Shown here piece after piece: positions 26,943 through 53,300 of a stretch of DNA of 64,000 bases. Source of the DNA: an uncultured Lachnospiraceae bacterium (GTDB lineage: Bacteria; Bacillota; Clostridia; Lachnospirales; Lachnospiraceae); contig CANOEC010000009.1 in the NCBI GenBank assembly GCA_947564735.1, positions 1-64,000 on the forward strand, in the 5' to 3' direction. Both the position numbers and the translations under genes were made by a program. The notes below the pieces were generated by a model. The model was not told the origin of the DNA, searched no databases, and saw only the letters and a program-made list of their open reading frames with translations. Position 1 is the first letter of the stretch; every line of letters starts with the position of its first letter.

Positions 26943-26966
26943 GTCAGTGTTCCTCACATACTATAA

Positions 26967-27194
26967 GAAAATCTGCTTCGCAGATTATCTTGGGAAGAAC
27001 CTTTGGTTCTTCCGCGCTTTGGCGGAATTTCCTATTATACAGGAAAATCTGCTTCGCAGATTATCTTGGGAAGAACCTTCGGTTCTTCCGCGCTTTGGCG
27101 GAATTTCCTATTATACAAGAAAATCTGCTTCGCAGATTATCTTGAGAAGAACCTTCGGTTCTTCCACATTTGTCGAAATTTCCTATACTAGAGC
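26967..27194. repeat. Three tandem 76-bp structured repeat units
   Basis: Units start at 26967, 27043 and 27119. Each holds hairpin 1 (arms AATCTGC and GCAGATT, loop TTC), hairpin 2 (arms GAAGAACC and GGTTCTTC), a weaker CCGC/GCGG hairpin, and the tail TTTCCTATTATA. Units 1 and 2 are nearly identical; unit 3 is eroded in its last third. The array fills the gap between the pseudouridine synthase stop and recU. Another junction-like fragment (27204-27226) lies inside the 3' end of the synthase gene. A single copy occurs at 53223-53297. There are no spacers, so it is not CRISPR. Confidence 0.95.
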
Positions 27195-28276
27195 ATAATG
27201 CCGGGATTTCCTATTATGTGGAAAATATCGGGCAATTTGGCATAAAATGTTTTTTCGCTGATATCTTCAAAAGGCGCGGAAAGCCGTGGAAACACCACTT
27301 TATAGGCATGTAAAAGCTGGTATTTCACATGATATTTCTGCCGATACTCATCATTCCACGCCTTATCGCCGTATTTATAATCCCCCAGCAGCGGATGACC
27401 GATACTGGCAAGATGGGCACGTATCTGATGCGGCTTTCCGGTGATAAGTTCTACTTCAAGAAGCGTCTTATCATGCATTATCTCAAGCGGTCTGTAGCAA
27501 GTCCGGATATACGCCTTTTCTGCGTCCGCCGTCTTTTGCAAAAGAGCATTTCCCTCACTGGCAGTCTTTTCAGTCAGCGTAACGGATACTTTATTATGAT
27601 TCTCATCCTTGGAAAGATACCCTTCGACAAGCCTTTCTGTTCTGACCGCACCTTTTACATAGGTCTGATAATACTTGTGAAGCGTTCTGTTTTTTAAAAG
27701 TTCTCCTAAAAGCTGCGCACCCTGAAGCGACTTTGCGCATAACACGATACCGCTCGTATTGCGGTCAAGACGGTTACATACGGACGGTTTAAAAAAGGCA
27801 AGCTCGTCTTCCTTTATATAGCCGCTGTCAAGTAGGTATCCGATCAGCCACTCATTCAAAGAAGCATCCGTCCTCTCAGCCTTTTGTGATAAGACGCCCG
27901 CCGGTTTATCTGCAAGAAGAATGTGTTTGTTTTCATAGAGAACCTGTACCCCGGATAGTTTCCGATATGCCGCAAGATAGTCTGTTGTACTGCTTTTCCT
28001 TTCCCGCATCATCCCATTATCCTGCTCTACATCATTCAGACTGCCTGCAGCCGCCAATCCTCTGAACTTTAAGAGCGTCTCCCTAGCAAAATAAATCTTC
28101 ACACTGTCTCCGACGGCAACCTTCTCACTGCCATCAGCCTTCCTGTCATTAAGAGTAATGTTTTTTTTGCGCAGCATCTTATATAAAAAGCTGCTTCCGG
28201 CATTGGGTAATATCCGGTGCAGATATTTGTCAAAGCGCTGTCCGGCTTCTTTTTCCGTTATACTTGTCTGATACAT
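27188..28276 (-). CDS. RluA-family 23S rRNA/tRNA pseudouridine synthase
   Basis: The 362-residue protein has an N-terminal S4 RNA-binding domain (RFDKYLHRILPNAGSSFLYKMLRKKNI) and an RluA-type catalytic domain with the nucleophile Asp in CNRLDRNTSGIVL. Later motifs are GKPHQIRAHLASIGHPLLGD. It is closest to RluC/RluD in layout. The start is ATG 28276, with GAGG 6-7 nt upstream. An acidic and basic insert (about residues 78-110) separates the S4 and catalytic domains. The final dozen residues appear to be encoded by repeat-derived DNA. Confidence 0.92.
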   Translation of the reverse strand: MYQTSITEKEAGQRFDKYLHRILPNAGSSFLYKMLRKKNITLNDRKADGSEKVAVGDSVKIYFARETLLKFRGLAAAGSLNDVEQDNGMMRERKSSTTDYLAAYRKLSGVQVLYENKHILLADKPAGVLSQKAERTDASLNEWLIGYLLDSGYIKEDELAFFKPSVCNRLDRNTSGIVLCAKSLQGAQLLGELLKNRTLHKYYQTYVKGAVRTERLVEGYLSKDENHNKVSVTLTEKTASEGNALLQKTADAEKAYIRTCYRPLEIMHDKTLLEVELITGKPHQIRAHLASIGHPLLGDYKYGDKAWNDEYRQKYHVKYQLLHAYKVVFPRLSAPFEDISEKTFYAKLPDIFHIIGNPGIML

Positions 28277-28406
28277 TCCAATCCTCATTACAAAGCGTAG
28301 GCGTGAAAACACGCAGGCCATTTCCAGCCTGTTCCCAGATTCTGTTTATTTTTGCTCAGAACCAAACAGACCTTGTGACAAATCAGCACATCAGTATGCT
28401 GCTTTG

Positions 28407-53197: not shown

Positions 53198-53222
53198 TGT
53201 AAGACCTCTTTCATCTCTGTTC

Positions 53223-53297
53223 TATAATAGGAAATTCCTCCAAAGCGTGGAAGAATGCTCTGCATTCTTCCCAAGATAATCGCGAAGCGATTTTCTT
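53223..53297. repeat. Dispersed single copy of the structured repeat
   Basis: Read on the minus strand this 75-nt element matches the 26967 unit nearly base for base outside the stems. Hairpin 1 is one pair shorter (AATCGC, loop TTC, GCGATT). Hairpin 2 is one pair longer, with arms GAAGAATGC and GCATTCTTC and loop AGA. The CCTATTATA tail is identical. Stem changes occur on both arms together. It lies between the hybrid kinase gene and the stop codon of the gene at 53301, in inverted orientation to the array. Confidence 0.93.
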
Positions 53298-53300
53298 GTC

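Follow-up and report, generated by a model that had tools for sequence, protein, structure and literature searches.

The window, the whole 64,000-nucleotide stretch of DNA analysed here, comes from an uncultured Lachnospiraceae bacterium and carries an array of three short repeated units of 76 nt, in tandem at 26962-27189 on the forward strand (26962-27037, 27038-27113 and 27114-27189; slightly shifted boundaries are given in the list below). A further unit of 76 nt lies at 53223-53299 on the minus strand and is an inverted match to this array, as a sequence-only reading of the DNA had already noted. Read along its own strand, the dispersed unit opens with hairpin 1 (CAAGA-A-AATCGC.TTC.GCGATT-A-TCTTG), whose loop on the plus strand is a GNA sequence (GAA), continues with hairpin 2, which is absent from some other units, and closes with a short tail. 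The features, with the evidence for each, are as follows.

53223..53299, minus strand: dispersed unit, probably a non-autonomous element (array match; covariance-model match at 53224-53299, 91.7 bits; empty site in genome G001)
53272..53298, minus strand: hairpin 1, proposed termination end, terIS-like (sequence, fold, covariation)
53249..53271, minus strand: hairpin 2, GGAAGAATGC.AGA.GCATTCTTCC (sequence, fold, alleles)
53223..53238, minus strand: tail GGAATTTCCTATTATA, proposed origin end, oriIS-like (same sequence as at the right end of IS91-family copies L238 and L241)
53219..53222, minus strand: GAAC adjoining the tail, a target-like tetranucleotide or the remnant of a lost neighbour unit (sequence and flank statistics)
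26964..27039, plus strand: array unit 1, starting TAAG (repeat match)
27040..27115, plus strand: array unit 2, starting CAGG (repeat match)
27116..27190, plus strand: array unit 3, starting CAAG (repeat match)
27191..27218, plus strand: decayed fourth unit, GAGCATAATGCC..GGGATTTCCTATTATG (sequence, tail scan)

The final codons and stop (IIGNPGIML-stop) of a 377-aa ORF on the minus strand (27188..28321) derive from the decayed fourth unit (27188-27217); judged from these codons, the C-terminus of a host protein seems to have been supplied by the element.

The unit is a repeat with many copies in its host and not a chance resemblance. The genome of origin (4.52 Mb in 102 contigs) has at least 61 unit matches, a lower bound in that 40 of 108 first-look candidates were scored, and 79 stretches of it, covering 298 kb including the window, hold 94 non-overlapping units. 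These stand as 40 singles, 21 pairs and four triples. A covariance model (R1, built on alignment A1 with a partial structure) finds at least 62 units in the same genome, again a lower bound (62 of 4319 first-look candidates scored), and 39 in G040, 18 in G017, 17 in G035, 15 in G006 and 13 in G067, all of the same genus, with 14 weak matches in G014. Some match at E <= 0.001 occurs in 51 of 78 genus genomes, many of them weak. A species-level collection (84,980 species, one genome apiece), in which the genome of the window itself may be missing, contains an exact core pattern in 65 stretches; these belong to seven metagenome assemblies whose taxon labels are mixed. Contigs C73, C38 and C34 of the genome of origin (G000) start, and C28 ends, inside units, which implies that the assembly was broken by arrays and that the arrays are probably longer than seen.

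Pairing in the hairpins

Two differences between the array and the dispersed copy that the sequence-only reading had described as changes on both arms of a stem proved correct. In hairpin 1, AATCTGC.TTC.GCAGATT of the array corresponds to AATCGC.TTC.GCGATT at 53223, a loss of one pair from both arms; in hairpin 2, CC/GG becomes TGC/GCA (GGAAGAACC.TTC.GGTTCTTCC in the array versus GGAAGAATGC.AGA.GCATTCTTCC), and there the loop differs as well. The covariation check that was proposed with these observations came out unevenly once further copies had been collected: hairpin 1 pairs far above shuffled expectation, whereas hairpin 2 offers little beyond one class of change, most of its pairs being nearly invariant and the variation amounting in essence to C-G in some copies and T-A plus an extra G-C in others. 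A single uncompensated change reported for a third hairpin is also real, but this hairpin is not supported as a conserved stem: of 62 linkers listed, 26 fit the pattern [AG]C[GT]CTTTGG[AC]G, and in these the middle pair is standard in seven (four G-C, three T-A) and non-standard in 19.

Hairpin 1 is present in 152 of 159 units, 94 from the genome of origin and 65 from named relatives. Stems were parsed in 147, leaving out the seven units without hairpin 1 and five with another stem length or a bulge. The lower stem is CAAGA/TCTTG in 106 cases, TAAGA/TCTTG in 18 and GAACA/TGTTC in 15, other forms being rare, and the upper stem is AATCGC/GCGATT (47), AATCTGC/GCAGATT (40), AATTGC/GCAATT (18), AATGCC/GGCATT (16) or AATTTGC/GCAAATT (7); mismatched upper stems exist, the commonest being AATCGC/GCAATT (6). 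The A.A internal loop between the two stems is kept in 141 of the 147, and on the opposite, G-rich strand the apical loop is GNA in 113 and GNRA in 17 (130 of 147). Among relatives, hairpin 1 often occurs twice, as a 26-28-nt tandem at the start of the element (loci L092, L093, L095, L097-L099, L101 and L102).

Pairs were counted on a pairing-maximising parse and on the ungapped alignment A3, because apical pairs are misplaced in the MAFFT alignments A1 and A2. The 58 distinct stem combinations, counted on the parse and hence with a bias towards pairing, have 98.2% paired cells against 91.1% in shuffles that ignore relatedness (0 of 1000 reach it). By the same shuffles, cells with a two-sided change number 71, as against 18.2 (0 of 1000). 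The pairs that show such a change number 8, compared with 5.3 in the shuffles, 3 of 1000 of which attain this count; for further pair types the figures are 22 and 19.4, with 40 of 1000 attaining the count. A set of 21 distinct 27-nt hairpin-1 sequences, taken from the 71 units that combine an upper stem of 6 bp with a triloop, and likewise shuffled without regard to relatedness, gives 97.0% paired cells versus 81.9% (sd 1.8) and a covariation score of 0.343 versus 0.089, neither of which is reached in 500 shuffles; slid controls attain at most 50.6% pairing and a score of 0.066. Two other measures for these 21 sequences do not rise above the shuffles: the count of pairs with a two-sided change is reached in 420 of 500, that of further pair types in 174.

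Hairpin-templated correction or gene conversion, to which palindromic single-stranded DNA is prone, might have produced the paired changes in place of selection on the fold, an explanation that is compatible with a mobile element. Of eight flank pairs compared, one was left out because it lay inside a single locus and another because it had a single flank; among the remaining six orthologous insertions five hairpins have changed. One (L132/L133) differs on both arms in a compensating manner, which supports correction because selection for mobility does not explain a change at a fixed site. The other four, few as they are, speak against it, three having changed on one arm and the last combining a substitution on one arm with an extra base on the other; so do unrelated stems that nevertheless pair in the left ends of insertion sequences and in other mini families. 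We consider correction as the whole explanation rather unlikely, with perhaps a minority chance, and as the source of part of the pairing possible. Selection is the likely, though unproven, cause of the pairing.

Insertion sites and strand orientation

The unit is a mobile element, and a related species lacks it at the 53223 site: in G001, which has both flanking genes, the matching blocks are separated by 18 nt as against 101 in the window. To the sequence-only reading, the paired changes had indicated a fold rather than a simple duplicated sequence. The paired changes stand and the contrast falls, for the unit is a duplicated, mobile sequence, one end of which seems to need the fold. A second case is found at C12:94327 (L025 1501-1575), where a 75-nt unit sits in frame inside an ORF and adds 25 codons, and G013 carries the gene without the unit. 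As for a possible target duplication, ACAAGAAAA occurs on both sides of this unit, but it is also the usual start of the unit itself.

Units start with CAAG, TAAG or GAAC (CAAGA, TAAGA, GAACA). Flanks were counted behind 70 tails, comprising 44 terminal copies and 26 with another element next. In the terminal copies, the tetranucleotide after the tail is TAAA in 11, CAAG in eight, GAAC in six and another in 19; A occupies position 4 in 39, position 6 in 35 and position 7 in 40, and T is absent from position 8 in all 44. The flank consensus, mostly N-N-N-A and then [T/C/G]AA[A/G/C]AAA, follows the pattern of the unit starts, so that units sit directly 5' of a site resembling their own start. 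A guide model, whereby the lower stem of a unit sets its target, is not supported, as none of seven terminal GAACA units adjoins GAAC (29 of the 94 units had no readable tail or hairpin 1 for this comparison). A DDE-type MITE, for which clear terminal inverted repeats and a fixed target duplication would be expected, fits poorly: by eye the two ends agree at eight of 11 positions, and no regular duplication is evident next to about 15 copies inspected.

Orientation is strongly biased. GC skew serves here as a proxy for replication direction, to which the direction of genes also contributes. By this measure, the C-rich strand coincides with the array strand, and the G-rich strand with the GNA-loop strand, at 54 of 59 loci in the genome of origin (p=1.9e-11), the 53223 copy being one of the five exceptions. 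The same orientation is seen at 60 of 65 loci in relatives, or 55 of 59 (p=1.7e-12) when one of each orthologous pair is dropped. Orientation follows skew between convergent neighbours (nine of nine loci) and divergent neighbours (nine of ten), the genes being taken from a crude ORF picker that reads across masked units, for which reason its assignments of units to gene interiors were left aside. In most bacteria the G-rich strand is the leading strand; on this basis the GNA-loop strand is probably the lagging-strand template. A second mini family of the same genome, TAAAAAAACGAGC.NNN.GCTCGTT..TGCGAGATTCGCTTCGCGAACTCGTG..GGAATTTCCTAT, is oriented likewise at 15 of 19 loci (p=0.019).

These data bear on what kind of molecule folds, a choice between RNA and DNA that the sequence-only reading had left open. 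Whole units fold better than all 200 shuffles under RNA parameters (z -4.7 to -5.7 in five folds), and a structured RNA kept by selection in transcripts, as a processing signal, stabiliser or terminator, would fit such stable folds, the GNRA-like loops, the many units near gene ends and starts, and the comparable modules of two hairpins that relatives carry close to tRNA-like sequence. It is at odds with the orientation, which tracks GC skew at 18 of 19 loci without a common direction of the neighbouring genes, with the copy in frame inside an ORF and with the empty sites; moreover, no Rfam family reaches its gathering score within the window. We regard it as very unlikely. On balance the evidence favours single-stranded DNA over RNA as the folding molecule, and the fold is likely to be under selection in that form at a transposon end.

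Lagging-strand bias also brings to mind REP/RAYT and IS200/IS605-type palindromic elements, which would be moved by a Y1 HUH transposase reading hairpins in the lagging-strand template. Like these, the units are short imperfect hairpins with internal mismatches, present in many copies; passages of PMC6006769 and PMC5371812 describe the lagging-strand template as the target of IS200/IS605 elements, with IS608 and ISDra2 as known cases. In contrast to such elements, three element-rich draft genomes (G006, G017 and G040) yield no match to Y1_Tnp (PF01797), with one partial match in a fourth draft (G035). The only sizeable match to a Y1 transposase in the genome of origin is an IS200-like tnpA split over two frames (L031, G000:C1:125109-125464), and no unit was seen in the surrounding 1.2 kb that were read. 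A GTAG or GTGG tag lies near hairpin 1 in one of 94 units on the array strand and in none on the other strand where hairpin starts could be located, and the shared right end of the unit points to IS91. An origin of this kind was rejected, mainly on the presence and absence of Y1_Tnp, and is about as unlikely as a structured RNA.

A probable IS91-family partner

The tail of the unit is also the right end of two IS91-family copies in the genus, which read GGAGGAATTTCCTATTATA/CAAAAAG in G034 (L238) and /CGAAAAAA in G049 (L241), the slash marking the junction; the counterpart in the window is GGAATTTCCTATTATACAAG. The two insertion sequences have 1.57 kb in common at 99% identity, ending within a few bases after GGAGGAATTTCCTATTATA in an A-rich flank. 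Matches to the Y2 transposase model PF04986 (Y2_Tnp) occur in eight of 78 genus genomes, and the tail lies beside the transposase at two of nine such places (L238; L241/L244). L239 stops at a contig end, and at L237, L240, L242, L243/L245, L266 and L267 a right end of this type was not recognised. At L238, L239, L240 and L243 the left end consists of an A-rich run followed by a TTC-loop hairpin, and all of the stems are paired (TAGGC/GCCTA twice, GTGTC/GACAC, TGTC/GACA). At L264 (G049 contig C15) an element-like tail is joined directly to such a left end. In the three partner proteins scanned, PF04986 stands behind the zinc-binding domain PF14319, and the motifs PHIHC and RYYGIY are, by eye, presumably the HUH and Y2 motifs.

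We therefore regard the unit as probably a miniature, non-autonomous form of an IS91-family (Y2 HUH, rolling-circle) transposon. Several findings count against this, among them that the left ends of the insertion sequences begin TAAA or AAAA and not CAAG or GAAC, that the first-hairpin loops of the second mini family are variable, that the shared right end is seen at two of nine PF04986 places and that the 53223 copy is itself an exception in orientation. PF04986 was found neither in the genome of origin nor in G006, G017, G035, G040 or G067, all drafts that are 86-99% complete. A search with the partner proteins against the genome of origin and 11 others, not including G067, gave matches down to 5e-10 in G017 and G040 and nothing convincing in the genome of origin. 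The G040 and G017 matches were considered as repeated pieces of transposase and judged to be a host gene family, because the first residues of the query read through host flank. The stretch L258 (G040:C32:1-8000) contains some four tandem repeats, roughly 90% identical, of a host gene region about 1.45 kb long. Tail-only sites at C6:31685, C18:46589, C2:210350 and C1:151413 have no nearby transposase recognised in their ORF lists.

Related structures occur elsewhere in the genus. L268-L270 and L272 are mini-elements in which a further lower stem, AAAGT/ACTTT, encloses the A.A loop already described; their tail matches that of the units or resembles it. At L274, L275, L276 and L109, two-hairpin modules with a like internal loop and no tail lie beside tRNA-like sequence.

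The units resemble the IS91 family (IS91, IS801, ISCR) in their right end, in their start and target tetranucleotides CAAG and GAAC, in a left-end stem-loop and in that no long inverted repeats were seen in them. Unlike members of that family they are about 50-77 nt long, gene-less, present in more than 90 copies, arranged head to tail and furnished with a second hairpin, and the transposase was not found in the element-rich genomes searched. For IS801, passages of PMC3189936 give GAAC, GGAC, CAAG and CGAC as targets and describe transposition as starting at the right end and proceeding to the left, where there is a potential stem-loop. Also described there are one-ended miniature IS801 fragments of Pseudomonas syringae, which likewise have an intact right end and GAAC/CAAG-like starts. 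Those fragments are 229-679 nt long and lack the left stem-loop, which the same passages suggest might be irrelevant, whereas the units form a dedicated structured family.

A proposed transposition cycle and its significance

On the GNA-loop strand, the order would be a target (CTTG, GTTC or TTTA, for example), immediately followed by TATAATAGGAAATTCC as the origin end, then the linker, the optional hairpin 2 and hairpin 1, which closes with TCTTG or TGTTC and would act as the termination end at the 3' side. A Y2 transposase supplied in trans may nick the junction between tetranucleotide and origin, rolling-circle replication would peel off one strand, and hairpin 1 with its tetranucleotide would stop the process. 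The freed strand would then be joined 3' of a CTTG-, GTTC- or TTTA-like site in single-stranded DNA, mostly the lagging-strand template. In such a cycle the stems would be free to change as long as pairing is kept.

Each copy opens with a target-like tetranucleotide and so offers new copies a place to insert next to it; missed termination may be an additional route to head-to-tail arrays. Both alleles could be read in 27 of 29 adjacent pairs; 11 carry the same hairpin-1 allele (0.41 versus 0.15 for random pairs), and in six of the 27 a CAAG-type unit is joined to a GAAC-type unit. Neither local duplication (or re-replication) nor new insertion next to a resident unit accounts for these counts by itself; both are needed.

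Such a cycle recalls the non-autonomous Helitrons and Helentrons (HINE, DINE-1), with which the units share the absence of genes, high copy number, a 3' terminal hairpin on the transferred strand and arrays. Passages of PMC4067079 state that HINEs prefer T-rich sites, as the units do, and that tandem arrays of Helitrons are thought to result from bypassed termination. For Helraiser, passages of PMC4778049 describe the 3' hairpin as a terminator that is helpful but not essential, a swapped stem retaining about 90% of activity and a changed loop acting much like deletion of the hairpin; some truncated Helraiser insertions have CTTG ends, a further likeness to the units. Unlike eukaryotic Helitrons, the units are bacterial, and the partner proteins have no helicase domain in Pfam. 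In the comparison with non-autonomous Helitrons, the units are about twenty times shorter than the 1.57-kb insertion sequence. We put the chance somewhat short of even that the units are a bacterial counterpart of non-autonomous Helitrons, with a terminator read by its pairing and loop as the stem drifts, insertion tied to the lagging strand, and termination ends that serve as targets and so grow arrays.

To our knowledge, end and target choice of IS91-family elements are poorly understood, and a literature search, mostly of journals outside subscription, returned no title or abstract on a bacterial non-autonomous, hairpin-ended IS91 family. On a lagging-strand orientation bias of IS91 elements, it returned a single review. 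Natural variation provides upwards of 100 copies of a minimal substrate in which the stems vary, the loops mostly do not and the flanks are known; the rules of termination and targeting thereby become directly testable. The matter has wider reach in that elements of this family have been associated, in other bacteria, with the dissemination of resistance and virulence genes, according to passages of PMC6218425 (on ISCR) and PMC3189936. Paired changes in a repeat need not imply RNA. The strand bias suggests coupling of Y2 transposition to the replication fork and, if the units are indeed the counterpart of Helitrons, would be evidence for fork-coupled Y2 rolling-circle transposition, as is known for Y1 elements.
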